A DNA stretch of 64,000 bases from assembly GCF_005862235.1 (NCBI RefSeq), contig NZ_VCEK01000002.1, positions 372,001 to 436,000 of the forward strand. Reading direction: 5' to 3'. The position numbers were made by a program, and so were the translations under genes. This DNA is from Saccharomonospora piscinae (GTDB lineage Bacteria; Actinomycetota; Actinomycetes; Mycobacteriales; Pseudonocardiaceae). Below the pieces are notes generated by a model. It searched no databases. It was not told where the DNA came from and saw nothing but the letters and a program-made list of their open reading frames with translations. This document shows, piece by piece, positions 3,450 to 58,875 of the stretch (within the stretch, counting starts at the first letter, position 1; each line of letters opens with the position of its first letter).

Positions 3450-3500
3450 CCGCGACTGACCGCGACTGACCGCGACTGACCGCAACTGACCGCAACTGAC
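3441..3500 (+). repeat. Six tandem copies of a 10-bp unit spanning the stop codon
   Basis: The unit CGCGACTGAC is repeated six times without gaps; the last two copies read CGCAACTGAC. The first copy contains the TGA that ends the phosphodiesterase gene. Because the unit is 10 bases long, successive copies place TGA in all three forward frames. It may be replication slippage or a deliberate frame-independent stop; the sequence alone cannot tell. Confidence 0.95.
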
Positions 3501-45531: not shown

Positions 45532-46116
45532 TCAGCGACGGGTGTCGACGCGGTCGAAGTTCTGGTAGGCGCGGCTCGGCGTCGGCCCGCGTTGTCCCTG
45601 GTACCGCGATCCGGCCTCCGGCGACCCGTACGGGAACTCGGCCGCGCTGGTGAGCTGGAACAGGCACAGCTGGCCGATCTTCATCCCGGGCCACAGGGTG
45701 ATCGGCAGGTTCGCGACGTTCGACAGCTCCAGCGTGATGTGTCCCGAGAAGCCCGGGTCGATGAACCCCGCCGTCGAGTGCGTCAGCAACCCGAGCCGCC
45801 CCAGCGACGACTTGCCCTCCAGCCGCCCCGCGAGGTCGTCGGGCAACGTGAACACCTCGAACGTCGCGGCGAGCACGAACTCCCCCGGATGCAGCACGAA
45901 CGGGTCGCCGTCGCCCTCCTTCTCCACGAGCGACGTCAGCTCGTCCTGGCGGAGCTGCGGGTCGATGTGCGTGTACTTGCTGTTGTCGAACACGCGGAAG
46001 AAGCGGTCGAGCCGCACGTCGATACTCGACGGCTGCACCATCGCAGGGTCGAACGGGTCCACCCCGAGCTGGCCCGATTCGAGCGCTTTGCGAAGGTCAC
46101 GGTCACTCAACAGCAC
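45532..46116 (-). CDS. dcd: dCTP deaminase
   Basis: A 194-residue trimeric deaminase supplying dUTP/dUMP for dTTP synthesis. Sequence signatures are [53 protein letters not shown] and [20 protein letters not shown]. Close actinobacterial homologues such as M. tuberculosis Dcd are bifunctional deaminase/dUTPases, which may apply here. A leaderless mRNA is likely: TAGGGT lies six bases before the GTG start. It follows the MpaB-like gene on the same strand with no gap for another promoter. Confidence 0.95.
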
Positions 46117-46120
46117 CGCT

Positions 46121-47380
46121 TCACCCTAACCGGCCAGCACCCGCCTCCTGACGCGGCGGGCTCGGCGCCGCCCGGTGGCGGGCGTAGGTCGGGTCGGGCG
46201 GCACGAGCCTGCCCAACTGCTCGGCGTAGCGCCTGCGCGCCACGGCACCGAGCCGCTCCTGCGCCCAGGTGGCCCCCGGCAACCTCCTGCGCACGGTCTC
46301 GGCGGCGAAGTTGCCCGCCGCGGCCGTGAGCACGGCAGCCTGCGCCACCGGGTCGTTCGGGATGCCGAGGAAGTCGGAGTTCGTCCGGCCGAGCACCAGC
46401 CTGCTGATGGAGCCGTGGACCCGCGCCGAGAGTTCGCCGAGCAGGCCACCCAGCGGGCCGTCGCCGCCGACCTCGGCGTGGGAGCGCAGCAGTGCCGCCG
46501 CGAGTCGTTGCGAGTCGGCGTCCGGCACGAACTCGGTGACGGCCAGCAACCACAGCAGCCGCCACGCATCGTCCTCGGTGGCGGGCAGCAGCTCGTCGTC
46601 CACGCCGACCAGCCAGCCCACATAACGCCACAGGTGCATGATGTCGGCGCGCTCGGTCTCCGAGTAGCGCACGCCGAGCACCCGCATGCCCATGACGTAG
46701 ACCAGCGAGAACAACAGCAGCGTGCCCGCCGTCTGCACCTGGTTGATCGGGCGGTCCCACGACTCGTAATCCCAGTCGTCGCGGCTGTTCATCGCGGCCC
46801 GGACGTGCGCGTGAACGAGCCGCACCCGCAGCGCTGAGGCGTACCCGGTGGCGCCGACCCGCAGCGACCCGGGCGTGGTGACGTCGAGCCACCACTGCGT
46901 CGTCTCCACCAGCCTGCGCGCCGCCGCGTGCTCGATCGCCCCGGTTCCGACCAGCGGTTTCGTGGCACGCGACGCCAGGTAGCCGCCCATCAGGGCCATG
47001 TCGCCGAGCGGGAACAGGCTGAGCACGCCCGTCCGCACGATGGCGCGCGCACCGCGGTCGAGCCGCTGCGGATCGACCCAGTACGGCGTCGCCTCGACAG
47101 AGCGGAAGAAGTCGACCAGCTCGACGGGCGGATCGTCGAGGCTGTCGATGCCGTGCTCGGTGGCGCGGTCGAACAACGCGCGCCCCTCGCCGCGCGGCAA
47201 CCGGCGCTCCATCGCGACCACCGCGTCGGCGAGCGGGTCCTCCGCCTGCGCGAACTCGCGCAGGCGTCGCCGCTGCCGCTCGGTACCCCGGATGTCGCCG
47301 GGTGCGAAAAGGCGCGTGGCGACCCGGAATCCGCCCTCCCGCAGCAGCTCGGGATCCGGCAACCGCTCGTCGGCCGTCAT
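46121..47380 (-). CDS. MpaB-like oxygenase (DUF2236 family)
   Basis: A 419-residue heme-dependent oxygenase-like protein. The DUF2236/MpaB region covers about residues 60-330, with [40 protein letters not shown] and [20 protein letters not shown], the histidine cluster that binds heme b in latex-clearing and MpaB enzymes. ATG 47380 is chosen since it is the first ATG after a weak promoter (TTGACG near 47417). An 18-bp inverted repeat (47380-47397) overlaps the start codon. It lies just upstream of dcd. Substrate unknown. Confidence 0.85.
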
Positions 47381-47397
47381 GACAATGAGTGTTGTCA
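47380..47397. promoter_or_regulatory. 18-bp inverted-repeat operator at the MpaB-like start codon
   Basis: TGACAATGAGTGTTGTCA has perfect TGACAA-N6-TTGTCA symmetry and covers the first base of the start codon. It shares 15 of 18 bases, spacer included, with 5673-5690 upstream of the lipase. A shared TetR-type repressor is the simplest reading. Confidence 0.72.
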
Positions 47398-47494
47398 CTT
47401 TGCGGTGCGACCGTCAAGGGGCGCGCGGCGCGGGCGAGGAGTCGGGCACCCGCTTGCGGAGGCGAGATCGCCCCGGTGTAGGCTGTGTGCCGCT

Positions 47495-47568
47495 GCGGAT
47501 GTAGTTCAATGGTAGAACATCAGCTTCCCAAGCTGAGAACGCGGGTTCGATTCCCGTCATCCGCTCCA
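47495..47568 (+). tRNA. tRNA-Gly(CCC)
   Basis: A complete cloverleaf with encoded CCA. The acceptor stem is GCGGATG/CATCCGC, the D arm GTTC-AATGGTA-GAAC, the anticodon stem TCAGC/GCTGA with loop TTCCCAA (anticodon CCC), the variable loop GAAC, and the T arm GCGGG-TTCGATT-CCCGT. Total 74 bases. It is followed by a terminator. No integrase or direct-repeat att copy is visible. Confidence 0.96.
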
Positions 47569-47572
47569 AGAA

Positions 47573-47618
47573 GAAACCCCCAGGTCAGACGGCTCGATCT
47601 CGTCGAACTGGGGGTTTC
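47573..47618. terminator. Terminator hairpin after tRNA-Gly
   Basis: GAAACCCCCAG (47573-47583) pairs perfectly with CTGGGGGTTTC (47608-47618) around a 24-base loop, five bases after the tRNA CCA. Confidence 0.8.
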
Positions 47619-47686
47619 GCTGTAGCAAGGGCCGCACTGACGACTCGCGCCCGTAAGCCATTTCGCGGCGCTGCTACGGTCGGCTC

Positions 47687-48031
47687 ATGGCTCCGATGCT
47701 GTTCGCCGGAATCGCCGTCCGTGACCACGCTGCTGCGGTGCCCTGGTACGAGAAGTTCTTCGGCCGTCCGGCGTCGTTCGAGGCCACCGAAACAGAATCG
47801 GTATGGGGCCTCGCGGAGCACGGCTGGGTGTACGTCGTCGAACGCCCGGCGGACGCGGGACACGCTCTGCTCACGATCATGGTCGACGACCTCGACGCCA
47901 CGGTGGCGGATGTCGGTGACCGTGGCATCAAGCCGGAACGCCGCGAAAGCTACGACAACGGTGCTCGCAAGGTGCTTTACCAGGACCCGGACGGTAACGA
48001 GATCTCGTACGCCTGGGCCCCGAGGGACTGA
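47687..48031 (+). CDS. VOC (glyoxalase/bleomycin-resistance fold) family protein
   Basis: A 114-residue vicinal-oxygen-chelate protein. The beta-alpha-beta repeats include MLFAGIAVRDHAAAVPWYEKFFG, VYVVERPADAGHALLTIMVDDL and VLYQDPDGNEISYAW, with metal-ligand-type His and Glu residues. TACGGT (47675-47680) lies six bases before the ATG, predicting a leaderless mRNA. A truncated copy of its 3' end occurs at 48801-48873. Function unknown. Confidence 0.88.
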   Translation: MAPMLFAGIAVRDHAAAVPWYEKFFGRPASFEATETESVWGLAEHGWVYVVERPADAGHALLTIMVDDLDATVADVGDRGIKPERRESYDNGARKVLYQDPDGNEISYAWAPRD

Positions 48032-48043
48032 TCCCGGAAACCG

Positions 48044-48127
48044 CCGTGTCCGCATTTCCCGTAGCCGTGTCCGCAGGTTGAGTAGTCGTGTCCGCAGCCC
48101 ACGTAGTCGTGTTTGCAGTTCTCGTAG
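48044..48127. repeat. 21-bp repeat cluster A (four tandem units)
   Basis: Four contiguous 21-bp units (48044-48064, 48065-48085, 48086-48106, 48107-48127) share (C/T)CGTGTCCGCAG at the start and GTAG at the end. The orientation is opposite to cluster D at 54621. They lie between the VOC gene and the phosphatase gene. Confidence 0.92.
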
Positions 48128-48233
48128 GCAGCTTGTGTACGACGTGCCGGACGGTACGGTGCTAGATCGGGTCGAGCTGCACGACTCCCCGCTGAGTGAG
48201 GGCGTGTCCGTCACGCTTCGTTGACGCTCCACG

Positions 48234-48284
48234 TCGTGTCCGCAGTTCCCGTAGCCGTGTTTGCCTCGCACGGTGCGGACACGG
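48234..48284. repeat. 21-bp repeat cluster B with inverted copy
   Basis: One full unit (48234-48254), a partial unit CCGTGTTTGC and then GCGGACACGG in the opposite sense, able to pair as a 10-bp stem with two G-T wobbles. About 50 bases match cluster C. It lies just before the phosphatase -10 box. Confidence 0.85.
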
Positions 48285-48307
48285 GGGTTCACTGGATAAT
48301 CGGCAGC

Positions 48308-48763
48308 GTGTCCGACGTCCGGTTGGCTGGAGCGACGCGGCTTCCCGACGGTGTGTGGGTGCGGGGGCGCGGCCTACGCCACCCGCTGGCTGACGGCGCC
48401 GCCCCCGACTACGGCCTGTACCTCGGAGGACACGGACTGCGGGCCCGGCACGAGTCGTCGCTGACCTGGCCACACGACTGGGTGTTCTGGCGCGACGGGC
48501 TACTGCCGGCGGACTGGCCGGCGACGGCGGACCGGCTGCTGGAGGCACACGCCCGCGCTCGCGCGGGCCAGGCCGTGGAGTTCGCCTGCCACGGCGGGCT
48601 CGGCCGCACCGGCACGGCCATCGCGTGCCTGGCCACGCTGAGCGGTCTGTCCCCGCGCGCGGCGGTGCGGTGGACCCGCGAGAACTACCACCGCAGCGCG
48701 GTGGAGGTTCCGTGGCAACGTCGTTACGTCTCGTGGTTCGCCCGCCATACCGCGAGCACCTGA
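48308..48763 (+). CDS. Protein-tyrosine/dual-specificity phosphatase-like protein
   Basis: A 151-residue cysteine-phosphatase-fold protein. The active-site loop is CHGGLGRTG (HCX5R type with Cys and Arg present), followed by TAIACLATLSGLSPRAAVRW. An upstream aspartate for general acid could be in PADWPATADRL. GTG 48308 is chosen because GATAAT (48295-48300) lies seven bases before it; the frame is open further up through repeat units and would add non-conserved residues. Substrate unknown. Confidence 0.82.
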   Translation: MSDVRLAGATRLPDGVWVRGRGLRHPLADGAAPDYGLYLGGHGLRARHESSLTWPHDWVFWRDGLLPADWPATADRLLEAHARARAGQAVEFACHGGLGRTGTAIACLATLSGLSPRAAVRWTRENYHRSAVEVPWQRRYVSWFARHTAST

Positions 48764-48764
48764 G

Positions 48765-48799
48765 GCGACGGCCGTCACTCGCCCGTCTCACGCAGGAAC
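48765..48799 (-). pseudogene. Relic of a YjbR/MmcQ gene 3' end
   Basis: Thirty-one of 35 bases match 49536-49570, the last codons, stop and trailing bases of the intact YjbR-like gene, in the same orientation. It would encode LRETGE and a stop. The rest of that gene is missing: one base further on, the VOC relic begins. Confidence 0.8.
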
Positions 48800-48800
48800 G

Positions 48801-48873
48801 ACGATGCTCGCAAGGTGATCTACAAGAACCGGACGGTAACGAGATCTCCTACACCTGGGCCCCGAGGGACTGA
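48801..48873 (+). pseudogene. Relic of a VOC gene 3' end
   Basis: About 65 of 74 bases match 47958-48031, the last 24 codons and stop of the intact VOC gene. One base is missing relative to it (near 48829), so the frame shifts before DGNEISYTWAPRD. No 5' part is present. It abuts the GNAT gene stop. Confidence 0.88.
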
Positions 48874-49398
48874 TCACCGAAGCTCGCCCTCCAGCAGGCT
48901 CATGAGAATCATGTCGTGCCAGCGACCCTGACCTCGGAACGCGTCGCGATGCCTGCCGTCGTGACGGAACCCCACCTTCTCGTACACGCGCACCGCCGCG
49001 TCGTTGTCCGCCACCACCCACAAGGCGATGGAGTGCAGGCGCATGGCGTCGAAGCCGTAACGACACAAGGTGCGCATTGCATCAGTGCCATAGCCGCGGC
49101 CCCACTGGTCCTTTTCCCCGAGATAGAAATCGACCTCCGCTCGCGCGGTTTCCGGCGTCGCATCTCGTAGGGTCGCGGCACCGATAAGCTGCCGCGTTAC
49201 GCGCGTCTCCACCCCGAGGACGACCTTCGAGTACGTGTTCACCTGACGCTCGGCGAATCGCGCACGAATCTGTGCTAATGATTCGTCATAGTCGAAAGCC
49301 AGCCAACGCACCACGTCACGGTCGTTGTGCCACCGATGAAATGTATCAGCGTCTCCCGGCTCCAGCGGACGCAACACCACGTGTTCCCCAGTGAGCAT
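48874..49398 (-). CDS. GNAT family N-acetyltransferase
   Basis: A 174-residue RimJ/RimL-like acetyltransferase. It starts MLTGEHVVLRPLEPGDADTF and has VDFYLGEKDQWGRGYGTDAM, the acetyl-CoA-binding Q/RxxGxG/A loop, then LHSIALWVVADNDAAVRVYEKVGF. ATG 49398 has a GGGGGG tract just upstream and matches the usual N-terminus. It reads toward the VOC relic, and a 21-bp repeat cluster lies upstream. Substrate unknown. Confidence 0.9.
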   Translation of the reverse strand: MLTGEHVVLRPLEPGDADTFHRWHNDRDVVRWLAFDYDESLAQIRARFAERQVNTYSKVVLGVETRVTRQLIGAATLRDATPETARAEVDFYLGEKDQWGRGYGTDAMRTLCRYGFDAMRLHSIALWVVADNDAAVRVYEKVGFRHDGRHRDAFRGQGRWHDMILMSLLEGELR

Positions 49399-49457
49399 CC
49401 CCCCATCCTGCTCGGCCGAGCGACACGGGTCGAGCCGGAAGGGCATTTTCCGAAGCA

Positions 49458-49529
49458 TCGTGTCCTCAGTTCCCGTAGTCGTGTCTGCCTCGCACGGTGC
49501 GAACACGGCTACGCAGGCTGCGGACACGG
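49458..49529. repeat. 21-bp repeat cluster C, both orientations
   Basis: A unit in one sense (49458-49478), a variant unit (from 49479), then inverted sequence and a full unit in the other sense (49509-49529). About 50 bases match cluster B. It lies between the GNAT start and the YjbR-like stop. Confidence 0.88.
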
Positions 49530-49545
49530 CTGGACGCGACGGCCG

Positions 49546-49884
49546 TCACTCGCCTGCCTCGCGCAGGACCCGCGCGGGCGCCCTGCGCCGCCACGCCGCG
49601 TCGACGAGTTCGGCCAACTCGTCCGGCTCGACCACGTCGAGATCGACGAGGATCGCGCCGTACCCGTCGTAGTGGGGCGTGGTGTGAAAGGCGGGACCGC
49701 CTGAGGCGAGTAGCGCCTCCTTCTCGTCCAGCCCACACATCAGCACCAACCAGCCCTCGGCCTCGGTGCGCAACCGGGCGAACGTCTTGTCCGCGACTTT
49801 CAGCGCGGGGGTCCGGTAGGAGGTCGACACGCGGACGCCGGGGCGTCGTGTCGCGAGCCGCACCACGTCATCCCAACTCGGCAT
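49546..49884 (-). CDS. MmcQ/YjbR family DNA-binding-fold protein
   Basis: A 112-residue CyaY-like-fold protein. The family pattern is visible in WDDVVRLATRRPGVRVSTSY, ALKVADKTFARLRTEAEGWLVL and HTTPHYDGYGAILVDLDVVEPDELAELVDAAW. ATG 49884 is chosen as the first start giving the family N-terminus. Family function is poorly known, and it is not necessarily DNA-binding. Its 3' end is duplicated at 48765-48799. Confidence 0.87.
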   Translation of the reverse strand: MPSWDDVVRLATRRPGVRVSTSYRTPALKVADKTFARLRTEAEGWLVLMCGLDEKEALLASGGPAFHTTPHYDGYGAILVDLDVVEPDELAELVDAAWRRRAPARVLREAGE

Positions 49885-50010
49885 GCTCCGATCGTCGCAA
49901 GCTCGCGCCGGTGGTGCGCGCCGGCCATCGGCCGGACGGCCGACTCGGCCTCCACACGGTGTCCGCTCGACCGAGGTGGCGAAACCCCGCCGGGTTCTAG
50001 CGTCAGGATC

Positions 50011-50730
50011 ATGACGACGGCCCAGGTAACTGCCTTGACGTCCGGGATGCTCGTGTTCGCCGTGGTGTGGGCGGTGGTGCTGGTCCCGCAGGTGCTCGAC
50101 CACCTCGCCCGCTTCGGCCGGGTGGAGGCCCGGCGGGTGGCGACGACCGCCGCTGTCACGCTGTACGCCTGCCTCGCGGTGGCGGTGGTGTTGCTGCCGC
50201 TGCCCACGCCGGGCGAGGCCCGGCTGACACAGCTCGTGCAGCCGGTGCCGTTCCAGTGGGTCGCCGACGTGGGCACGGAACTGGACCGGTACGCCTCACC
50301 GACACTGTTCGCGCCGTTGACGCAGACGTTCCAGCAGTTCTCGATGAACGTGCTGCTGTTCGTGCCGCTCGGCGTGATCGTGCTGGCGCTGTGGCGGCGG
50401 GGCGCTCGGTTCGCGACGCTGTCCGGCCTGGGCCTGTCGCTGCTGGTGGAGATCACGCAGCTCACCGCCAACTTCGGCACCGCGCCCTACGCCTACCGCA
50501 TCTTCGACGTCGACGACCTCATGGCCAACACAGCCGGGGCCGCGTTGGGCTGGCTGGCCGCCCGCCTGTTCGTCGTTCTGCGGCGGCTCAGGGCGACGAA
50601 CGCCGCAGCACCGGAGCGGCGGACACGGCCTCTGCCTCACCCAACCGCACCAGGCGTTCCCGGCGCTGCCGTTCCCGCCTGCGCCCGGCACGCTGGTCCT
50701 CGTACACCACCGTCGCCGCCGCGGCGATGA
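50011..50730 (+). CDS. VanZ family membrane protein
   Basis: A 239-residue protein with about five transmembrane helices in residues 1-190. The VanZ core shows FSMNVLLFVPLGVIVLALW, LSLLVEITQL and FDVDDLMANTAGAALGWLA, the usual DxxDxxxNxxGxxLG signature. The last 45 residues are Arg/Pro-rich and overlap a small gene on the other strand, so the true functional end may be near residue 195. TAGCGT (49998-50003) lies seven bases before the ATG (leaderless). Confidence 0.88.
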   Translation: MTTAQVTALTSGMLVFAVVWAVVLVPQVLDHLARFGRVEARRVATTAAVTLYACLAVAVVLLPLPTPGEARLTQLVQPVPFQWVADVGTELDRYASPTLFAPLTQTFQQFSMNVLLFVPLGVIVLALWRRGARFATLSGLGLSLLVEITQLTANFGTAPYAYRIFDVDDLMANTAGAALGWLAARLFVVLRRLRATNAAAPERRTRPLPHPTAPGVPGAAVPACARHAGPRTPPSPPRR

Positions 50731-50770
50731 GCAGGATCACCACTCCGCCGAAGACCAGAGCCAGTTGCAC
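50588..50770 (-). CDS. Small single-pass membrane protein, antisense to the vanZ-like tail
   Basis: A 60-residue protein with one N-terminal helix (QLALVFGGVVILLIAAAATVVY) and a strongly basic cytoplasmic part (RAGRRRERQRRERLVRLGEAE). AAGGGGG lies seven bases before GTG 50770, a good ribosome site. It overlaps the VanZ 3' end by 143 bases. Either both are translated or the VanZ tail is incidental. Function unknown. Confidence 0.6.
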   Translation of the reverse strand: MQLALVFGGVVILLIAAAATVVYEDQRAGRRRERQRRERLVRLGEAEAVSAAPVLRRSSP

Positions 50771-50850
50771 GCCATCCCCCTTGATGCCGTTGTGTGTGGC
50801 CCGTCACAGCCTAGGGGTTCGTGGCGTGGAACACGAGTCCGCCACGGGTC

Positions 50851-51204
50851 TCACGGCGCGGGAAGCACGCAGAACTCGTTGCCCTCTGGGTCGGCCAAGA
50901 CGACCCAGGGATGACGCTCGTCGTTCGCAAGTATCCGTGCGCCCAGGCCGACGAGCCGCTCGACCTCGACATCCCGGCCACCCTCGGCGGGGGCGATGTC
51001 CAGGTGCAGCCGGTTCTTACCCGACTTGGGTTCGGGCACGGGCTGGAACACCAGCGTCGGATCGCCGGGCAGCTCGACGTAGGTGAGATCGTCGGCCTCC
51101 GGCCACCGCCGGGGCGGCGCCGTGCCCAGCACGCGCCGCCAGAAGTCGGCGAGCGACTCGGCGTCGGCGCAATCGACAGTGACGGCGAGAACACGGGCAG
51201 GCAT
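50851..51204 (-). CDS. VOC family protein
   Basis: A 117-residue glyoxalase-fold protein: VLAVTVDCADAESLADFWRRVLG, RLHLDIAPAEGGRDVEVERLVG and WVVLADPEGNEFCVLPAP are classic for the actinobacterial VOC class with the DPEGNEFC strand. TATTTT (51212-51217) lies seven bases before the ATG, a clear leaderless layout. It is not close in sequence to the VOC gene at 47687. Confidence 0.9.
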   Translation of the reverse strand: MPARVLAVTVDCADAESLADFWRRVLGTAPPRRWPEADDLTYVELPGDPTLVFQPVPEPKSGKNRLHLDIAPAEGGRDVEVERLVGLGARILANDERHPWVVLADPEGNEFCVLPAP

Positions 51205-51261
51205 ACCCGCGAAAATACCCGGAGGAGACCGCGCCCACTCCTGAGCACCACTTAGCTCTAC

Positions 51262-51290
51262 TCGGTGTAACTCGTGTGGTTCGGTGTAAC
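51262..51290. promoter_or_regulatory. Direct repeat TCGGTGTAAC upstream of the LuxR gene
   Basis: Two exact 10-base copies (51262-51271, 51281-51290) are 19 bases apart start to start, 79 bases before the LuxR-type gene. The spacing suits an activator dimer binding site; no factor is assigned. Confidence 0.4.
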
Positions 51291-51368
51291 CAGTTCAGCT
51301 CAGCGGGAATACCCCGTCCAGGGGAGTGACGGGCTGGCATCAGCCGGGCCGCGCGGAGGGAGGACGGG

Positions 51369-52112
51369 ATGGCACAGAGCACACCAGGCATCGACAGGTC
51401 GACCCACACGGTGACCGTGGCCGCGCTGGACTCGGTGCCGGTCTTCCGCGAGGGGCTCAGCATGGTGGTCAACCGCACTCCGGGGCTGCGCTGGGGCGGA
51501 CACGCCTCCAGCCACCACGCCGGCATTCAGATGTGCGAGCAGCTGCGGCCCGATGTCGTGATCCTCGATTCGGCACTCGATCCGCACGGCCACCTGACCC
51601 GCGTGCTCGCGGAGAACCACCCGATGCTGGTGATCGTGGTGCTGGTCGGCGAGGGGCAGCGCACCCCGAACTACCTGGCCACGGTGCTGGCGGCGGGGGC
51701 GCACGGCGCGCTTCCCCGCTCGGCGGAGGCTCGCCAGCTCACCGACGGTCTGCGTCGCGCGTTCGTGGAACGCCGCTTCACCGATCCCGCACTCGCCGCA
51801 CTGGTGCCCGCGCCGCGAGCCGGTGACGCGGCGGCGGGCGAGTACCGGCCGCAGATGCCGTTGTCCCGGCGCGAGTACCAGGTGTTGCAGCTGATCGCCG
51901 AGGGCCTGGAGAACTCCGCGGTGGCCGACACCCTGTTCCTGTCGGTGGAGACGGTGCGCACGCACGTCAAGAGCATCCTGCGCAAGCTCTCCGCCCGGGA
52001 CCGCACCCACGCGGTGACGAAGGCCTTCCGCTCGGGACTGCTCGTCGTCACGCCGGTGAACCACGCCCAGGCCACGCCGAGTCCCACGCCGCGCCCCACG
52101 CCGCGGCCCTGA
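51369..52112 (+). CDS. LuxR family response regulator with atypical receiver
   Basis: A 247-residue regulator. Residues about 15-130 look like a receiver domain: the phospho-acceptor aspartate position is present in DVVILDSALD, but the paired acidic residues at the start are reduced (VAALDSVPVF) and the conserved lysine is replaced (HGALPRSAEA). Phosphorylation is therefore doubtful. The C-terminal HTH is LSRREYQVLQLIAEGLENSAVA with SVETVRTHVKSILRKL. A Pro/Thr tail follows. GGAGG lies upstream. No sensor kinase is adjacent. Confidence 0.88.
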   Translation: MAQSTPGIDRSTHTVTVAALDSVPVFREGLSMVVNRTPGLRWGGHASSHHAGIQMCEQLRPDVVILDSALDPHGHLTRVLAENHPMLVIVVLVGEGQRTPNYLATVLAAGAHGALPRSAEARQLTDGLRRAFVERRFTDPALAALVPAPRAGDAAAGEYRPQMPLSRREYQVLQLIAEGLENSAVADTLFLSVETVRTHVKSILRKLSARDRTHAVTKAFRSGLLVVTPVNHAQATPSPTPRPTPRP

Positions 52113-52166
52113 CTGGGCCGGCCCAGCGAATCTCGCGTCACAGTCCCGCCACGACACTCGCCTGCG

Positions 52167-52196
52167 GTTACCCATTGGTAGTATCCTGATGTTACC
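52167..52196 (+). promoter_or_regulatory. Promoter and operator candidate of the FadE5-type gene
   Basis: TACCCATTGGTA (52169-52180) is a 12-bp inverted repeat that overlaps the -10 candidate TAGTAT (52179-52184). GTTACC occurs at 52167 and again at 52191. The overlap suggests repression by an unidentified regulator, perhaps fatty-acid responsive. Confidence 0.5.
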
Positions 52197-52294
52197 GGTC
52201 AGTAGGGCAGGGTGTGGCGATGCCGACCGCGCGTCCTGTCGGCGACAGGAGTGCCCAGCCGGAGTGCCGAACAACGCGTGTACGGAGTGACGAC

Positions 52295-54139
52295 ATGGGC
52301 CACTACAAGAGCAACGTCCGAGACCTGGAGTTCAACCTCTTCGAGGTACTCGGCGTGCAGGAACGCCTCGGCAGCGGGGTGCTCGCGGAATCCGACGAGC
52401 AGACCGCGCGGGGAGTGCTGACCGAGCTGAACAACCTCGCCGTCGGCCCGCTCGCCGAGTCGTTCGTCGACGCCGACCGCAACCCGCCCGTCTACGACCC
52501 GAAGACGTTCTCCGCGACCCTGCCGGAGTCGTTCAAGAAGAGCTACCAGGCGCTGTGGGACGGCGAGTGGTGGAGGGTCGGCCTCACCAACAACCTCGGC
52601 GGCTTCGGCCTGCCCCCCACGGTGCAGTGGGCGGCCGCCGAGCTGATGCTCGGCGCCAACCCCGCGCTGTACATGTACCTGGCGGGACCGAGCTTCGCCA
52701 TGATCCTCGACCGCAACGGCACCGAGGAGCAGCAGCGCTGGGCTCAGCTCATGATCGACCGCGCGTGGGGCGCCACCATGGTCCTCACCGAGCCCGACGC
52801 GGGCTCCGACGTCGGCGCGGGCCGCGCCAAGGCCGTTCAGCAGGACGACGGCTCGTGGCACATCGAGGGCGTCAAGCGGTTCATCACCTCGGGTGACCAG
52901 GACATGACCGAGAACATCATGCACCTGGTGCTCGCCCGTCCCGAGGGAGCCGGCATCGAGGCCAAGCCCGGCACCAAGGGCCTGTCCCTGTTCCTGGTGC
53001 CGAAGTTCCACTTCGACACCAACACCGGTGAGCCGGGCGAGCGCAACGGCGCCTTCGTGACGAACGTCGAGCACAAGATGGGCCTGAAGGCGTCCACCAC
53101 CTGCGAGCTCACGTTCGGCCAGCACGGCACCCCGGCCAAGGGCTGGCTGCTCGGCGAGGTGCACGACGGCATCGCGCAGATGTTCCAGGTCATCGAGTAC
53201 GCCCGCATGATGGTGGGCACGAAGGCCATCGCGACGCTGTCCACCGGCTACCTCAACGCGCTGGAGTACGCCAAGGAGCGCGTGCAGGGCCCGGACCTCA
53301 CCAAGCAGACCGACAAGACCGCGCCGCGCGTGACCATCACCCACCACCCGGACGTGCGCCGGTCGCTGATGCTCCAGAAGGCGTACGCCGAGGGCCTGCG
53401 CGCCGTCTACCTCTACACGGCGTCGTTCCAGGACCAGGTGTGGACGCAGGAGGGCGACGCCGAGTCGATCAAACTTGCCGAGCGCGTCAACGACCTGCTC
53501 CTGCCGATCGTCAAGGGTGTCGGGTCCGAGCGGGCCACCGAGCAGCTCGTGCAGTCGTTGCAGACGCTCGGCGGGTCCGGGTTCCTCCAGGACTACCCGA
53601 TCGAGCAGTACATCCGTGACGCGAAGATCGACTCGCTGTACGAGGGCACCACCGCCATCCAGTCGATGGACTTCTTCTTCCGCAAGATCGTCCGCGACAA
53701 GGGCACGGCGCTGGCGCACGTGGCAGGCGAGATCGTGTCCTTCATCGAGTCCGAGGCGGGCAACGGCAGGCTCAAGAACGAGCGTGCGCTGCTCAAGCAG
53801 GCGCTCGACGACGTGCAGGGCATGGTCGGCGCACTCATCGGCCAGCTCACCTCGGCGCAGGAGGACGTCACCAACGTCTACAAGGTCGGCCAGCACACGG
53901 TGCGGCTGCTCATGTCGACCGGCGACCTCCTCGTCGGCTGGCAGCTGCTCAAGCAGGCCGAGATCGCGCTGGCCAAGCTCGACGGCGGCGCCTCCGCCAA
54001 GGACGTGCCGTTCTACCAGGGCAAACTCGCTGTCGCGTCCTTCTTCGCCAAGACCGTGCTGCCGGAGCTCTCCGCGCGGCGCGCCATCGTCGAGGCGGCC
54101 GACAACGACCTGATGGAGGTCGACGAGGCGGCGTTCTGA
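52295..54139 (+). CDS. Acyl-CoA dehydrogenase, FadE5 type
   Basis: A 614-residue flavoenzyme for the first step of fatty-acid beta-oxidation. [18 protein letters not shown] at the N-terminus is typical of mycobacterial FadE5. The core has [33 protein letters not shown] and catalytic-region [19 protein letters not shown]; an extra C-terminal helical domain of about 150 residues is usual in this long class. GGAG lies seven bases before ATG 52295. It has its own promoter-operator and a strong terminator. FadE5 has broad chain-length use in mycobacteria; this copy is not tested. Confidence 0.95.
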
Positions 54140-54156
54140 TCGCGTCGCCACTCATC

Positions 54157-54197
54157 GGGGGCCACCGTCCGCGCGCGTCGCGCGGGAGGTGGCCCCC
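54157..54197 (+). terminator. Terminator hairpin after the FadE5-type gene
   Basis: GGGGGCCACC pairs with GGTGGCCCCC, and inside it CCGCGCG pairs with CGCGCGG around CGT, giving a 17-bp stem with small internal loops. It starts 17 bases after the stop. Confidence 0.85.
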
Positions 54198-54275
54198 GGT
54201 GTTCATACGGTTGACGATCGGCGAACTGGGTACCCCGATCGGGTCAACGACCCCGGCGCTGAAGGAGCGCACAGC

Positions 54276-54551
54276 ATGGCGATTTCGGGCATTATCTCCG
54301 CGATCCTCGTGGGCTTGGTACTCGGCGCGCTGGCACGGCTGGTCTTGCCGGGCAAGCAGGGAATCCCGATCTGGCTCACCATCCTCGTCGGCATCGCGGC
54401 AGCGTTCGTCGGCACGGCGATCGCCAGGGGGCTCGGCTACGCCGACACCGACGGCTGGGACTGGCTGGAGTTCATCACCCAGCTCGTCGTGGCCGCGATC
54501 GGGGTCTCGCTCGCCGCGGGGATCTACCCGCGCAAGCGCCTCAAGGCGTAG
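54276..54551 (+). CDS. GlsB/YeaQ/YmgE family membrane protein
   Basis: A 91-residue protein with three transmembrane helices. The family pattern is IISAILVGLVLGALARLVLPGKQGIPIWLTI-like, with the ARLVLPGKQ turn, then GIAAAFVGTAIARGL and a C-terminal AAIGVSLAAGIYPRKR. AAGGAG precedes ATG 54276. Members respond to general stress, but the molecular role is unknown. The 21-bp repeat cluster D begins 70 bases downstream. Confidence 0.9.
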   Translation: MAISGIISAILVGLVLGALARLVLPGKQGIPIWLTILVGIAAAFVGTAIARGLGYADTDGWDWLEFITQLVVAAIGVSLAAGIYPRKRLKA

Positions 54552-54620
54552 CGAGTTCGCGGCAGACTCGCCCACGGTGCCGTCGTGACGGTGGTGCCGT
54601 GGGCGATGTCGTGCGTGGGC

Positions 54621-54704
54621 CTACGTGAGGTGCGGACACAGCTACGTGGGCTGCGGACACGACTACGCAGCCTGCGGACACGGCTACGTGGGCTGCGGAC
54701 ACGG
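54621..54704. repeat. 21-bp repeat cluster D (four perfect-period units)
   Basis: Units at 54621-54641, 54642-54662, 54663-54683 and 54684-54704 read CTACGTGGGC then TGCGGACACG and a purine, with few changes. The period is exactly 21 (two helical turns). It lies between the convergent YeaQ-like and VanW genes, three bases from the VanW stop. Confidence 0.95.
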
Positions 54705-54706
54705 CG

Positions 54707-56515
54707 TCAGCACGGGGTGGCTTCGGCCAGGGCGTAGGTCGTCGTGGTGGTGTCCGTGCGCGGGGCACCGCCACCGTGCCGGGGGTGCCGCACCCGCGTG
54801 GTGGTGACGGCGGCGGAATCGCCGTCCCGTTCACAACGGGTGTCGATGTCCACGTCGTAGGAGCGGGTGCCCCACAGCGTGACGGTCACCTCCGAGGCCG
54901 TCACCGCCGCCCGCACGGCCAGCGCCGTCGCGGTGTCGTTGGTGAACGCGAACTCGGCGGGTGAGCCGTTGACGCCCGCCGAGACCGCGTCGAGTCCCGG
55001 CGGGTAACGCCCGAGGTAGCGCTGATGCGGGGTGCGTTCCACGACAGGCAGACCGGCGCTGTACACCGCGGCGTACAGCGTTGAGGTGAGCTGAGAGACC
55101 CCACCGCCGAGCACGCGGGGACCCGTCCCGTCCTCGTACAGCGGGGCGCGGCCGTAGCCGCGTGAGGCGGTGCGGGGGCCGGTGTGCCGGTCCAGCCGGA
55201 ACGTCTCGCCCGGACGCACCACGGTGCCGTGTACCGCGGCGGCCATGCCACGCAGGTTCGACAGGACGTCCGGCGAGTGCCCGAGGGTGGTGGCGGTCGC
55301 GACCACCTCGCGGACACCCAGCGCCCGCACCTCGTCGGTGGTCACGGACGGCTCCACGGGGTCGTAGCGCACCGGCACCTCTCGCCTGCCCTCCGGGGCG
55401 GTGACCACGGCCTCGGTGAACCCGGCGAACGTGCGCTCCCACGCGATGGTCGTACCGCGCACCGAGGGCACGACCACCGGGACACCGCCCCGGAACACCA
55501 GGTCGGCGTCCCGGGCGGGACGTCTCGTGCGCAGCAGTTCGGTGCTCGCCGCCGTGCGCAGCACCGCGTGGTTCAGAGTCACGTCGAGCCGGGCGCCCTC
55601 GGGCCGCTCGGCGTCCCCGACGATGTGGAACTCCATGGCCCTGCCGAGGTCGTCCGGCAGCAGCACGGCGTCCCGGCCGTCACCGCGCAGCAGCACCGGG
55701 CCCGCGAGCAGGGGCCGGACGGTGGAGTCCAGCGTCGAATGCACGGCTTGCGCCGTCAGCCGAGGCCGCAGCACCTCGACCGGAATCTCGACCCGCCCCG
55801 GCTGCGGCCAGCGCGCCACGATCGCCGACACGGCGGCCTCCACGTCACTCACCCGCGCGCCCGCCCTCGGCTCGATCAGGTGTGCTTCCACCGCCCCCGC
55901 GTCACCGCTTTCCCCGGACTCCACGGGGCGCAGCCCGATACCGCCCTCGACAGCGGGCCGGTTCACGTGCCGCTGGGCCACCTCCCGCACCGCCGTGCGC
56001 AGGGCATATCCGTCGATGACCGGCACCGGTTCGACCTCGCGCCGACCGAACAGCGCGCCGAGGCGGGCCCACGGCTTCCAGGGCTGGCCCCCGGCATGTT
56101 CGACGGTGGCCGCCCAGTCGATGTGCAGCCCCGCGGTCGTGGGATCGAGCGGTGTCACCACCTCGCCCGCCCGCAGCTCCAGTGGCCGGGACACGCGCGG
56201 CCCCAGCTCCCGCCGCAACACCCGCTCGGCCTCGGCCGCGTCGAGGCCGCCGATGTCGACCCCGGACACCGTGACGCCACGCGGGACGTCACCGATGCTG
56301 GTGAACAGATCCACCACATATGCCACCGTCAGCAGCGCGGTCAGCGCTCCGAGCACGAGCAGCAGGTTGCCCACCCGCCGTTTCGTGCGCTGGGTGCGCC
56401 GGTCCTGGGGGACTGCGGGCAGAGTGTCCTGTGTGCTCCGCGGCGCCCCCGGCCGGAGGAGTTCCTCGGCGAAGCGGCGCTCGGCGGTGTCGTCCACGTT
56501 GTCGGAACCACCCAC
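54707..56515 (-). CDS. VanW family protein with membrane anchor
   Basis: A 602-residue envelope protein. A cytoplasmic tail (1-47) precedes one transmembrane helix (VGNLLLVLGALTALLTVAYVV). Two peptidoglycan-binding-4-like repeats follow (DIGGLDAAEAERVLRRELGP, and a second at about residues 240-330), then the VanW domain with VVRPGETFRLDRHTGPRTAS and VLGGGVSQLTSTLYAAVYSAGL. VanW domains occur with vancomycin-resistance and wall genes but have no proven reaction. GTG 56515 follows GGGAGGG. Gap to the GroES-like gene 18 bases, so probably one operon. Confidence 0.9.
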   Translation of the reverse strand: MGGSDNVDDTAERRFAEELLRPGAPRSTQDTLPAVPQDRRTQRTKRRVGNLLLVLGALTALLTVAYVVDLFTSIGDVPRGVTVSGVDIGGLDAAEAERVLRRELGPRVSRPLELRAGEVVTPLDPTTAGLHIDWAATVEHAGGQPWKPWARLGALFGRREVEPVPVIDGYALRTAVREVAQRHVNRPAVEGGIGLRPVESGESGDAGAVEAHLIEPRAGARVSDVEAAVSAIVARWPQPGRVEIPVEVLRPRLTAQAVHSTLDSTVRPLLAGPVLLRGDGRDAVLLPDDLGRAMEFHIVGDAERPEGARLDVTLNHAVLRTAASTELLRTRRPARDADLVFRGGVPVVVPSVRGTTIAWERTFAGFTEAVVTAPEGRREVPVRYDPVEPSVTTDEVRALGVREVVATATTLGHSPDVLSNLRGMAAAVHGTVVRPGETFRLDRHTGPRTASRGYGRAPLYEDGTGPRVLGGGVSQLTSTLYAAVYSAGLPVVERTPHQRYLGRYPPGLDAVSAGVNGSPAEFAFTNDTATALAVRAAVTASEVTVTLWGTRSYDVDIDTRCERDGDSAAVTTTRVRHPRHGGGAPRTDTTTTTYALAEATPC

Positions 56516-56533
56516 CGGCGCCCTCCCGCGTGC

Positions 56534-56878
56534 CTACAGGTACAGGCCCGTGCCGTGCTCCGTCCGCTCGCTGGCCACCGCGTGCACGTCGCGTTCCCGC
56601 ATCACGAGGTACGCATCGCCCTGGATCTCGACCTCGAGTGGTTCCTCCGCGTTGAACAACACGCGGTCGCCGACCTTGACGTTGCGCACGTTGTTGCCCA
56701 CTCCGAGCACGTTGCCCCAGGACAGGCGCCGGGCGACCTGGGCGGTCGCCGGGATCACGATGCCCCCGGTGCTACGCCGCTCGCCGTCGGACGACGGCAT
56801 GCGCACGAGCACCCGATCGTGCAGCATCTGGATCTCGAGCTTCGCGTCCGACGTGAGTGGACTGTTGGGTTCTGACAC
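56534..56878 (-). CDS. GroES-like (Cpn10-fold) protein
   Basis: A 114-residue protein with the Cpn10 fold: IQMLHDRVLVRMP at the start of the barrel, a mobile-loop-like ERRSTGGIVIP, and GDRVLFNAEEPLEVE near the end. It is longer than canonical GroES (about 97 residues) with extra N- and C-terminal tails. TAGCAT overlaps an upstream ATG (56887) and is seven bases before GTG 56878, so the GTG is chosen. No GroEL gene is nearby. It may be a paralogue with its own client rather than the essential GroES. Confidence 0.82.
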   Translation of the reverse strand: MSEPNSPLTSDAKLEIQMLHDRVLVRMPSSDGERRSTGGIVIPATAQVARRLSWGNVLGVGNNVRNVKVGDRVLFNAEEPLEVEIQGDAYLVMRERDVHAVASERTEHGTGLYL

Positions 56879-56925
56879 GGGATTCATGCTACGTCGCGGG
56901 AACGGACCGGATCTCGGCCGCGTGC

Positions 56926-58875
56926 CTACTCGGCCGGAGTTCCCGCCATGACGAGCGGCAATCCTCGGTCACCCTCGGATTCGAGCGATACGGGCACACC
57001 CCAGTCCTGGCGGGTGACGCGGCAGACCGGGTGCTCGGCGTCGGAGGCACAGCTCGCGGCCTGCGCGACGACCTGCACCACGCCACCCTCGACACCCTCG
57101 GCGAGGGTCAGGGTGCGCTCCAGGTCGGTGCCCACCCCGCCGCCGTCCACCAGCAGTTCGGGCGGCGAGGCACTGACCTCGAGCCGCGTGGAGGGGCCGT
57201 ACCGGTCGTCGAGCTTCTCGCCCGGCGGCGGCACGAACGTCACCGTCAGCCGCACCTGCCCCGGCGCGAGCACGGTGGCGGGCCTGCTGACCGCGAGCTC
57301 GTCGCCGTCGACGACGGCACCGACGTCACCACCGGCCGCCTCCGCGCGGTCGGCTTCGGCCACGCCGCCGTCGTGCAGCGCACGCAACCGGTGGGCCGCC
57401 GACTCCACGACCAGCACTCCACCGTCGGTCACGACGAGACCGGTGGGCTCGGCCAGTCCCTGCCGCAGCGTCGTCACCGTGCCCTCGGCCGGGTCGAAGC
57501 GGCGGACGGCGCCGTTGTAGGTGTCGGCCACGGCCACGGCACCGTCCGGCAGGACCGTGACGTCCACCGGATGCTGGAACAGCGCCCGGTCGGCTGGCCC
57601 GTCGCGGTGGCCGAAGGTGAACAGGTCGTGGCCCACCGCCGTGCGGACCTGGAACCCGCCCGAATCGCCGTCGGGTTCGAGGTAACGCAGGGCCGAGGTC
57701 TCCGCGTCGACGAGCCACAACCGCTCGCCCGCCACGGCGAGGCCGGAGGTCTGGGCGAAGAACGCCTCACCGGCCTGCCCGTCGCGCAGTCCCTCCACGG
57801 TGGTGCCCGCGAACCGCGAGATCGTGCCGGCCACGGGGTCGAACACGCTCAACGTGTGGTTGCCCGCCATCGCGACGATCACGCCACCCGCCGCATCCCA
57901 CCACCGCGCGTCCCACGGACTGGTGAGGTCCACGTCCAGCGCGGGGCCCGAATGCTCGCCGTCCCGCCACTGCCGCCCGGTCCCGGCCACGGTGCGCACG
58001 GCGCCGGTGCGGAGGTCGATGCCCCTGAGCAGGTGGTTGGCGGTGTCGGCGACGAGCAGGTGGTAACCCACCCGCTCGGCGACGTGGGTGGGCAGCAGCG
58101 TCAGCCCGGAAGGCTCGGCGAAGCTCGCCACGTCGAAGGCACCGTCGGCGGCGCCGCGCGTGCCGTCGCCGAAGCGGCGCAGCAGCGTCTCGGCGTCGGA
58201 GGCGAACTCCGCGACGGAGTGCCGGGCGGTGTCGGCCACCAGCACCCGCCCCTCGGCCGTGACCACGGCCTTGGAGGGAAAGTGCAACGGCGCGTCCTCG
58301 GCGGTCTCGGCGGTCTCGGCGGTCTCGGCGGTCTCGGCGGTCTTGTCGCCGTCGGCGGGGTCCGCCGCGGTGCGGTCCAGCGCACCCCGCCGCAGCGTTC
58401 CCGCGCTCTCGTGCGTCGCCACCAGCTCCGCGATGACCCGGCGCAGAGCCTCGCCGTGGCCCTCACCGGCGGCGACGTGGACGACGTAGCCCTCGGGGTC
58501 CACGAGCACCAGCGTCGGCCACGCCTTCACGGCGTACTGCTGCCACAGGGCCATCTCCGGGTCACTCACCACGGGATGCCGTACGTCGTAGCGGGCCACG
58601 GCGGCGGTCACCGAGTCGCGGCCGCCCTCGTGGGCGAACTTCGGCGAATGCACCCCCACGGTCACGAGCACGTCGTGGAACTCGTCCTCCAGCGGACGCA
58701 GCTCGTCGAGGACGTGCAGGCAGTTGACGCAGCCGGACGTCCAGAAGTCCAGCAGCACGATCTTGCCGCGCAGACCGGCCAGCGTCAGCGGCGCGCCCCC
58801 GGTGTTCCACCAGGCGTCGCCGGTCAGCTCGGGTGCGCGCACGCGGGCGCGGGGTTTCGACTGCTCAACACTCAC
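56926..58875 (-). CDS. Thioredoxin-like / NHL-repeat fusion (NHLRC2-like)
   Basis: A 649-residue protein. Residues about 5-150 form a TlpA-like thioredoxin domain with LLDFWTSGCVNCLHVLDELR (CxxC) and WPTLVLVDPEG. A linker of repeated AET (from a 9-bp DNA repeat) leads to a six-bladed NHL-type beta propeller (FAEPSGLTLLPTH, VADTANHLLRGID, PVDVTVLPDGAVAVADTYNG) and a C-terminal beta domain. There is no signal peptide, so it is probably cytoplasmic. GTG 58875 is chosen as start. Human NHLRC2 has this architecture; its bacterial role is unknown. Confidence 0.85.
   Translation of the reverse strand: MSVEQSKPRARVRAPELTGDAWWNTGGAPLTLAGLRGKIVLLDFWTSGCVNCLHVLDELRPLEDEFHDVLVTVGVHSPKFAHEGGRDSVTAAVARYDVRHPVVSDPEMALWQQYAVKAWPTLVLVDPEGYVVHVAAGEGHGEALRRVIAELVATHESAGTLRRGALDRTAADPADGDKTAETAETAETAETAEDAPLHFPSKAVVTAEGRVLVADTARHSVAEFASDAETLLRRFGDGTRGAADGAFDVASFAEPSGLTLLPTHVAERVGYHLLVADTANHLLRGIDLRTGAVRTVAGTGRQWRDGEHSGPALDVDLTSPWDARWWDAAGGVIVAMAGNHTLSVFDPVAGTISRFAGTTVEGLRDGQAGEAFFAQTSGLAVAGERLWLVDAETSALRYLEPDGDSGGFQVRTAVGHDLFTFGHRDGPADRALFQHPVDVTVLPDGAVAVADTYNGAVRRFDPAEGTVTTLRQGLAEPTGLVVTDGGVLVVESAAHRLRALHDGGVAEADRAEAAGGDVGAVVDGDELAVSRPATVLAPGQVRLTVTFVPPPGEKLDDRYGPSTRLEVSASPPELLVDGGGVGTDLERTLTLAEGVEGGVVQVVAQAASCASDAEHPVCRVTRQDWGVPVSLESEGDRGLPLVMAGTPAE
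58301..58345. repeat. Five tandem 9-bp units in the thioredoxin-NHL linker
   Basis: GCGGTCTCG is repeated five times (last copy GCGGTCTTG) inside the coding region, in frame, encoding an AET-type repeat on the minus strand. Copy number may vary between strains without shifting the frame. Confidence 0.92.

Follow-up and report, generated by a model that had tools for sequence, protein, structure and literature searches.

The four clusters of 21-bp repeats that we studied in a 64,000-nt stretch of the Saccharomonospora piscinae genome (hereafter the window) are tentatively interpreted as belonging to a dispersed family of putative binding-site arrays that are polar and lie at gene ends. Our results suggest that about a hundred small arrays in Saccharomonospora and a few relatives form an undescribed set of putative protein-binding sites that would mark gene ends or block transcription there; "undescribed" means here that a literature search listed no publication on this family. 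The interpretation given by an earlier sequence-only reading of the window is partly supported; among the roles that it proposed, we favour the protein-binding array because the units have a conserved core, a freer spacer, 21-bp phasing and a consensus that shifted clade-wide. It is from these features that we infer the binding itself.

Four clusters of 21-bp units in the window

Direct reading and a rescan of the window confirmed the four clusters of 21-bp units (Table 1) and their period, the tandem spacing being exactly 21 bp. The unit has a conserved core, TGCGGACACG, plus 4-5 nt that are specific to the clade. As a correction to the sequence-only reading, CTACGTGGGC is the variable half of the unit and TGCGGACACG its conserved half. 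We denote by ">" a core that reads TGCGGACACG on the + strand and by "<" a core that reads CGTGTCCGCA on the + strand. Arrays comprise 2-7 units in 48 out of 49 cases, and in facing arrays an 8-nt centre often separates the "<" and ">" arms.

Table 1. Coordinates of the repeat clusters and associated features in the window
Feature	Positions	Strand	Description
Cluster 1	48044..48127	-	one-way array, four "<" units, cores 48045-48117, some cores with mismatches
Gene 3' remnant	48129..48224	+	begins directly after cluster 1; TGA 48222-48224
Cluster 2	48234..48284	.	facing array "<<|>", cores 48235-48283, upstream of phosphatase-like gene
8-nt centre of cluster 2	48266..48273	.	TCGCACGG
Cluster 3	49458..49529	.	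facing array "<<|>>", cores 49459-49528, upstream of GNAT gene
8-nt centre of cluster 3	49490..49497	.	TCGCACGG
Cluster 4	54621..54704	+	one-way array, four ">" units, cores 54631-54703, in convergent gap

The intergenic placement of the clusters was borne out, as any overlap with a called gene is at most 2 nt. A VOC/glyoxalase-like gene ends (stop at 48031) 13 nt before the first core of cluster 1. Because a gene 3' remnant separates clusters 1 and 2, a stop codon precedes cluster 2 as well, the TGA of the remnant ending 10 nt ahead of its first core; the gene of this remnant is longer in G001 (L197 2644-3225, end ELHDSAFSQGVSVGLR*). The last core of cluster 3 is 17 nt from the stop of a YjbR-domain gene (49546 on the - strand), and that of cluster 4 is 3 nt from the stop of a VanW-domain gene (54707-56515 on the - strand). 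An Rfam scan of window positions 46000-57000 returned three matches up to E=1, none at a cluster.

The phosphatase-like gene is preceded by "<<|>>>" in S. viridis (G010), by ">>" in G001 and by a degenerate array (by eye) in G011; in G002 and G007, the 330 nt upstream of it contain no array. At the site of cluster 4, we counted four units in G009, two in G002 and two degenerate ones in G011 (by eye), and no units in G001, G003, G007, G008 and G010.

A dispersed family with a preferred polarity

The sequence-only reading had called for a search of the unit genome-wide and in relatives. In the 4.9-Mb genome, this search detected 300 matches to the 21-mer with ≤3 mismatches (153 forward and 147 reverse), and a reversed-pattern control gave 0 + 0. 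Contig C4 (1.13 Mb) yielded 28 arrays to an in-register array finder, and its reversed sequence yielded none. The null counts of both controls exclude chance. A position weight matrix (PWM) scan gave isolated weak units in numbers about equal to the control, and we therefore restricted the analysis to arrays with at least two units. Arrays occur in 8 out of 12 Saccharomonospora genomes and in three other genera of the family; the unit pattern found none in the four remaining Saccharomonospora genomes, which are drafts of 82-91% completeness.

Genes were called by our own codon-usage script rather than a standard annotator, and small genes and starts are uncertain. One of the 28 C4 arrays lies inside a called reading frame, and some fetched loci outside C4 overlap called ORFs (L026, L033, L153). 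Given the C4 count, we rejected a coding function of the seven-codon period, and the proposal that 21 bp serves to keep frames open is probably irrelevant. We agree, from the build of the arrays, that they are not CRISPR: the 11-nt spacers are not unique and recur across loci, with a kept pattern.

Both orientations are present, as the sequence-only reading had it, but they are not freely mixed: "<" precedes ">" in both mixed clusters of the window and in 22 out of 22 facing arrays from five Saccharomonospora data sets. C4 has 61 opposite-strand core pairs no more than 200 nt apart; 59 are minus-first (55 of them at 18+21k nt) and two are plus-first. In another genus (G340 and G341), we counted 21 minus-to-plus changes and no plus-to-minus change; 11 of the 21 are at exactly 18 nt and nine are out of the 18+21k register. 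The rule is not universal, as G184 (">>>>>" then "<<<<") and G127 (">>" then "<<"), from other genera, have the reverse order.

Cores are kept at orthologous sites and the consensus differs between clades

In four orthologous array pairs, differences affect 10 out of 160 core positions versus 56 out of 132 spacer positions, although the core conservation is partly ascertained because arrays were found through their cores. Two clades differ in unit consensus, also at sites common to both, where the unit is each clade's own version.

We considered a neutral tandem repeat (VNTR) that grows by slippage, is homogenised by recombination and has no function. Stretches of near-identical units (eight consecutive matches among those listed for G001, three identical spacers at G003 236841) and unit numbers that vary at some shared sites (2/7/7) are consistent with such a repeat. 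We nevertheless regard it as very improbable, given that the core is frozen while the spacer changes, two shared sites keep their unit number (4 and 4), and many dispersed copies obey one polarity rule. The suggestion that the arrays are a recombination substrate is weakly favoured by rearrangements in the window that abut clusters and by three contigs that begin inside arrays. Matched DNA of the compared species has a mean identity of 78% and 86%, and their intergenic alignment is too poor for footprints; the species are too far apart for footprints of empty sites to be visible.

Arrays are concentrated just after stop codons

A stop codon lies within 100 nt of 98 out of 123 arrays, within 20 nt in 75 of these 98 and within 5 nt in 28. 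Convergent gaps hold 22 out of 46 arrays versus 12% of the residual intergenic bases, and divergent gaps hold 6 out of 46 versus 33%. In tandem gaps, arrays lie on average at 0.29 of the distance between stop and start, measured from the stop (n=18, p=0.001). There, one-way arrays ≤30 nt from the stop are mostly "<" (12 versus 3 ">"), and those farther away are mostly ">" (10 versus 4 "<"). The orientation of one-way arrays in convergent gaps fits the nearer stop in 25 out of 32 cases. Near a stop, the strand that continues the mRNA mostly reads CGTGTCCGCA. Array orientation relative to the stop is a bias and not a strict rule: one-way arrays divide 47 versus 22 by sense, and seven of the 22 opposite-sense ones have a second stop near. 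Among the proteins neighbouring divergent arrays, no shared regulator was seen (by eye).

Replacement of terminators by arrays is not general. Nine out of 11 convergent gaps with arrays in G000 show no other hairpin, whereas all six in S. viridis have one, four of them at -15 kcal/mol or stronger. In tandem gaps, hairpins are about equally frequent with and without arrays (75% versus 81% in G000, 3 out of 3 versus 60% in S. viridis).

Under the protein-binding reading, a putative sequence-specific protein would bind one face of the DNA, with two helical turns per unit. The array could then form a polar barrier by which RNA polymerase is stopped or insulated on its way out of the gene, and in convergent gaps it would do so from both sides. 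Repeated polar protein-binding sites are also found in eukaryotic rDNA terminator arrays (TTF-I/Sal box, Reb1) and in bacterial Ter/Tus, where they lie past the transcription unit or in the path of a moving machine and are dedicated to a single kind of locus or to replication. The arrays described here are likewise repeated, oriented sites downstream of genes, with exceptions in order and orientation, but they lie at the ends of many protein genes and their protein is putative. By analogy, a dedicated DNA-binding protein on phased polar arrays might stop RNA polymerase at about a hundred protein-gene ends, its specificity having shifted between clades together with its sites, as a counterpart of the rDNA terminator arrays; we consider this full scenario unlikely. 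No candidate for a partner gene stood out by eye in the G184 and G127 stretches. If the arrays are protein-bound barriers, bacteria would have, at many genes, an additional protein-directed and polar means of ending or insulating transcription besides hairpins and Rho.

Folding and a possible role in the transcript

Facing arrays fold strongly on both strands (mean z -5.9, n=15). Folding of one-way arrays is far weaker, with a mean z of -1.4 for the sense and -1.7 for the antisense strand (n=33) and a few strong cases (e.g., z -6.7). These folds bear on the proposed transcript-processing structure. Mirrored spacers of facing arrays do not covary, and we therefore rejected hairpin selection as a general cause. 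The complementarity of facing-arm spacers was 6.27 versus 6.79 of 11 in shuffled spacers (22 pairs, clade A); the two pairs of clade B are uninformative.

The arrays might instead act in the mRNA as a 3'-UTR element, either as the target of an RNA-binding protein that recognises the repeated CGUGUCCGCA in the transcript, or through facing-array hairpins that terminate transcription, protect the mRNA or stall ribosomes, as reported for REPs. The proximity to stops, the sense "<" bias close to them and the folding of facing arrays and of a few one-way arrays fit such an element, as does the description of such effects in PMC12306157 for E. coli REPs that lie no more than about 15 nt from the stop. 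We judge it improbable, since facing-arm spacers do not exceed shuffled ones in complementarity, the average one-way array folds weakly, 22 out of 69 one-way arrays have the other sense, and some arrays lie in divergent gaps or beyond a hairpin. At the latter (by eye, C4:68446 and the end of a groEL-like gene in G009), an mRNA element would serve little purpose.

Mobile repeats and comparison with known systems

Alternatively, a transposase or some other copying apparatus may recognise the units. As in REP/MITE-like selfish repeats, arrays would spread among intergenic sites and persist at gene ends, where insertion harms least. Two sets of sites that are inverted and flank a short centre would then represent both ends of an element that carries no cargo. 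The family is dispersed, restricted to some genera and patchy, with many orthologous gene ends lacking arrays. Facing arms have a common centre, few arrays lie in divergent gaps, G341 has runs of the same units at two loci 21 kb apart (by reading), and all eight matches of G184 fall inside 20 kb, like an acquired stretch. Several observations nevertheless make this origin somewhat unlikely. The core is kept at shared sites and the spacer is not, and the 28 arrays ≤5 nt from a stop are placed more tightly than promoter avoidance needs. We rejected spread by phages or plasmids, as the exact tandem pattern had no match in viral contigs and cluster 4 had none in phages or plasmids. No target duplications were noticed at arrays (by eye). 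We also rejected RAYT/REP mobilisation because Y1 transposases (PF01797), the only ones searched for, do not track the arrays: they occur in 4 out of 12 genus genomes, one of which lacks arrays, and were not found in 5 out of 8 array-bearing genomes, some genomes being incomplete drafts. If the arrays are mobile nonetheless, they are a repeat family of unusually strict polarity and stop-codon preference. Under either reading, protein-bound or mobile, the fixed core and free spacer make the unit a ready bait for its partner.

Tn7/Mu-type ends carry several transposase sites of ~20-22 bp each, inverted between ends, and Tn7 inserts just after a stop codon; the present family differs in having hundreds of sites, with no cargo or partner seen. 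Mycobacterial MIRUs are dispersed actinobacterial repeats, some at stop codons, with longer units; they are not known to have a core/spacer build or a "<|>" centre.

The arrays resemble REP/BIME elements (GTAG- and CGTC-tagged) in being short, extragenic, present in many copies and both orientations, and often near stops and 3' ends. They differ in the direct abutment of units at a period of exactly 21 bp, in that the average one-way array does not form a stable hairpin and in that Y1 transposases, as noted, do not track them. The tag also differs: GTAG on the sense strand is contained in the G000 unit and fits its consensus, but is absent from that of the other clade (G003 and NB11). Saccharomonospora is not named in the main text of the REP papers PMC3733652 and PMC12306157. 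In Beggiatoaceae, TAACTGA direct repeats occur as numerous small arrays of an invariant unit, dispersed beside coding regions, and were proposed as binding sites for a putative partner, as described in PMC4679880. Those repeats have a 7-bp unit, are almost all direct and lie mostly just upstream of start codons, whereas the arrays described here have a 21-bp unit, follow stops and are polar.

A 21-bp unit repeated across the genome

The sequence-only reading described four clusters of a 21-bp repeat in the window, and they were present as described when the sequence was re-read. The family extends genome-wide. Searching the 4.9-Mb S. piscinae genome for CTACGTGGGCTGCGGACACGG with ≤3 mismatches gave 300 matches (153 + 147), and the reversed control gave none. 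Each unit comprises a conserved core and an 11-nt spacer. Read in the plus orientation ('>'), the commonest bases are summarized by the consensus TGCGGACACG R C T A C R Y R R S C in clade A (S. piscinae and S. viridis) and TGCGGACACG C G T R C R Y R R N C in clade B (the Saccharomonospora genome G003 and Saccharomonospora sp. NB11, the latter looser). The core is almost invariant, the final five or six positions are loosely held, and the clade B unit reads as close to an 18-bp palindrome.

We found 28 arrays in contig C4 (1,134,480 bp), where the window spans 372001-436000, 14 in 800 kb of S. viridis and 7 in 400 kb of G003; the array finder returned none on the reversed sequences. All but one of the 49 arrays have 2–7 units, and one has 9. 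Extrapolation from these three contiguous samples gives roughly 75–120 arrays per genome. Three S. piscinae contigs start within arrays (Table), which makes arrays a probable cause of assembly breaks, and the copy number given here may be too low. One gene end in the window carries, immediately 3′ of its stop codon, a 10-bp tandem repeat (CGCGACTGAC ×6); the same gene end has 21-bp arrays in G003 and S. viridis.

No description of this family was found in the published literature, searched by titles and abstract openings. In matched passages of the genome papers on S. viridis and S. cyanea, the word "repeat" is confined to counts of CRISPRs (9 and 0) and one reference title; the S. viridis P101 genome is 4,308,349 bp (PMC3035233).

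Coordinates of arrays and associated features
Feature	Sequence	Position	Units or detail
Cluster 1	window	48044-48127	
Cluster 2	window	48234-48284	
Cluster 3	window	49458-49529	
Cluster 4	window	54621-54704	
Array at contig start	S. piscinae C3	5-119	
Array at contig start	S. piscinae C4	1-105	
Array at contig start	S. piscinae C5	22-80	
Array beyond a hairpin (by eye)	S. piscinae C4	68446	
10-bp tandem repeat	window	3441-3500	
YjbR 3′-end copy	window	48762-48797	36 bp; 89% to 49533-49568
VOC 3′-end copy	window	48798-48881	48823-48881 90% to 47981-48039
Units 3′ of a terminator hairpin	G009 locus L127	1424-1454	2
Arrays, one ordered '>..<'	G184 locus L299	7382-10010	
Core matches at 21-bp spacing	Bernardetiaceae MAG (Bacteroidota), L126	1308-1805	
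Shared array, VanW-gene end	S. piscinae; G009		4; 4
Shared array	S. viridis; G009 counterpart	774913 (S. viridis)	4; 4
Shared array	S. piscinae; G003	130399	5; 4
Shared array	S. viridis; G003	630784; 236841	5; 4
Shared array	S. piscinae; S. viridis; G003	275022	2; 7; 7

Geometry and polarity of the arrays

The exact 21-nt period claimed for the window clusters holds for nearly all of C4, where same-strand cores ≤130 nt apart are separated by 21, 42, 63, 84 or 105 nt in 116 of 121 pairs. Among the 61 opposite-strand core pairs within 200 nt on this contig, 55 are minus-first at 18+21k, 4 minus-first at other offsets and 2 plus-first. Facing arrays are ordered '<..>' in 22 out of 22 cases (C4, S. 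viridis, G003 and loci of G009 and NB11), around an 8-nt centre that fits YCGYRCGR in 15 of 23 clade A instances. In two genomes of another genus (G340 and G341), minus-to-plus changes number 21 and plus-to-minus changes 0, with offsets of exactly 18 in 11, 39 in one and other values in nine; this count used 148 of 207 places (54/56 and 94/151, respectively, among the matches listed). Exceptions to the order occur in two genomes of other genera, G184 ('>>>>>' then '<<<<') and G127 ('>>' then '<<'), and lone weak units of opposite orientation appear at some NB11 loci under a laxer finder. The G184 arrays are confined to 20 kb of a genome without other matches, near genes that by eye look like IPP isomerase and oxidoreductases.

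Arrays lie mostly at gene ends

As had been noted for the window clusters, the arrays are nearly all intergenic: 46 of 49 lie between two called genes, in convergent (22), tandem (18) and divergent (6) gaps, for which array-free intergenic DNA amounts to 35,962, 165,245 and 100,538 bp, respectively. Of the three arrays outside this count, two are in C4 (one within an ORF, the other at the edge of the contig) and one is in G003. Tandem-gap arrays lie on average at 0.29 of the stop-to-start distance (n=18, p=0.001). Over six data sets, a stop codon lies within 100 nt of 98 out of 123 arrays (within 20 nt for 75 of these and within 5 nt for 28), in a set biased by many loci beyond the contiguous samples that were chosen for holding arrays, and by some that end at contig ends.

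One-way arrays within 100 nt of a stop are '<' away from the nearest stop in 47 cases and the opposite in 22 (binomial p=0.0035); for 7 of these 22, a second stop within 100 nt fits their orientation. By gap type (five data sets, leaving out 15 arrays at sequence edges), 25 of 32 convergent-gap arrays match the nearer stop, tandem-gap arrays are '<' versus '>' in 12 versus 3 within 30 nt of the stop and 4 versus 10 beyond, and divergent-gap arrays are 2 versus 2. By these counts, '<' sits close to the upstream stop, whereas '>' is more common at greater distance.

The anatomy, polarity (with few exceptions), location and unequal divergence of the arrays are established. That they are polar and sit at gene ends suggests that they hinder RNA polymerase: a putative protein would bind the core on one DNA face, every two helical turns, and the array would impede polymerase leaving the gene. 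Such a polar barrier would explain the distal '>' excess in tandem gaps, since distal arrays do not face the polymerase of the upstream gene.

Folding and terminators

Facing arrays form strong hairpins (mean z −5.9, n=15, both strands). One-way arrays fold weakly on average (z −1.4 sense and −1.7 antisense, n=33), a few reaching −4 to −7. Between mirrored spacers, 6.27 of 11 positions match, compared with 6.79 after shuffling (22 clade A pairs; 2 clade B pairs were uninformative), and thus no base pairing is being kept. Function as an mRNA element fits less well than a polymerase barrier because some arrays, by eye, lie beyond hairpins, one on C4 and one in G009 at the end of a gene that we take to be groEL. 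At the latter, the units follow a terminator hairpin and T run, and the S. viridis counterpart apparently has one unit (by eye).

Evidence that arrays replace terminators is mixed. Of the 11 array-bearing convergent gaps in S. piscinae, 9 have no other hairpin (remainders <20 nt counted as none), and 72% of array-free gaps ≥20 nt (n=60) have one of −15 kcal/mol or better. The corresponding S. viridis gaps with arrays have a hairpin in 6/6, reaching −15 kcal/mol or better in 4/6. In tandem gaps, arrays and hairpins co-occur at about the chance rate (with versus without array, 75% versus 81% in S. piscinae and 3/3 versus 60% in S. viridis).

Unequal divergence and distribution

In four orthologous array pairs (Table), 10 of 160 core positions differ, compared with 56 of 132 spacer positions (Fisher p=7e-14), with units non-independent and arrays detected through their cores. 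The S. piscinae/G003 pair was anchored at its left end and the S. viridis/G003 pair at its stop-proximal end; the array shared by all three was excluded for its unequal unit numbers. At arrays common to both clades, each clade has its own unit version, which is compatible with sites following a changing protein or with conversion between copies, although conversion would be expected to even out the spacers as well.

The unit recurs in related species: core-N11-core with 1 mismatch matches 84–395 times in 8 of 12 genus genomes (controls 0–1) and 0 times in the other 4, which are drafts 82–91% complete. A looser pattern has at least one match in 157 of 390 family genomes (controls up to 2). Beyond the genus, counts are high only in G340 (56), G341 (151), G386 (49) and G389 (162), from three genera; G184 has 8 and every remaining non-genus genome ≤5. 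Among 394 genomes sampled from across the class, 1–2 exact matches occur in each of 10 other than S. piscinae. Scanning assembled genome contigs gave at least 57 stretches; among the matches listed, most come from two assemblies on the Saccharomonospora side, NB11 and a bin matching G009, and the others are scattered over unrelated taxa. The long runs of core matches in a Bacteroidota MAG may be unrelated.

The strongest rival to the polymerase barrier is a mobile repeat. Viral contigs, phages and plasmids searched gave no matches. A Y1 transposase, considered as an array partner, is present in 4 of 12 genus genomes (G000, the S. piscinae genome, G001, G006 and G008) and does not track the arrays: G006 has it without arrays, and G002, G003, G009, S. 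viridis and G011 show the reverse.

History of the window locus

Clusters 1 and 2 are separated by what is left of the 3′ part of a gene, of which G001 has a longer version; its stop means that cluster 2 likewise follows a stop codon. Phosphatase and YjbR genes are adjacent in G001, G002 and G011; in S. piscinae, ~770 bp separates them, including a VOC 3′ fragment, a GNAT gene and cluster 3. Within this stretch, a copy of the YjbR 3′ end is followed directly by a copy of the VOC 3′ end. These copies make window 48762-48881 a rearrangement hub whose source sequences adjoin clusters 1 and 3. Arrays also lie upstream of the orthologous phosphatase gene in S. viridis and G001 and, in degenerate form by eye, in G011.
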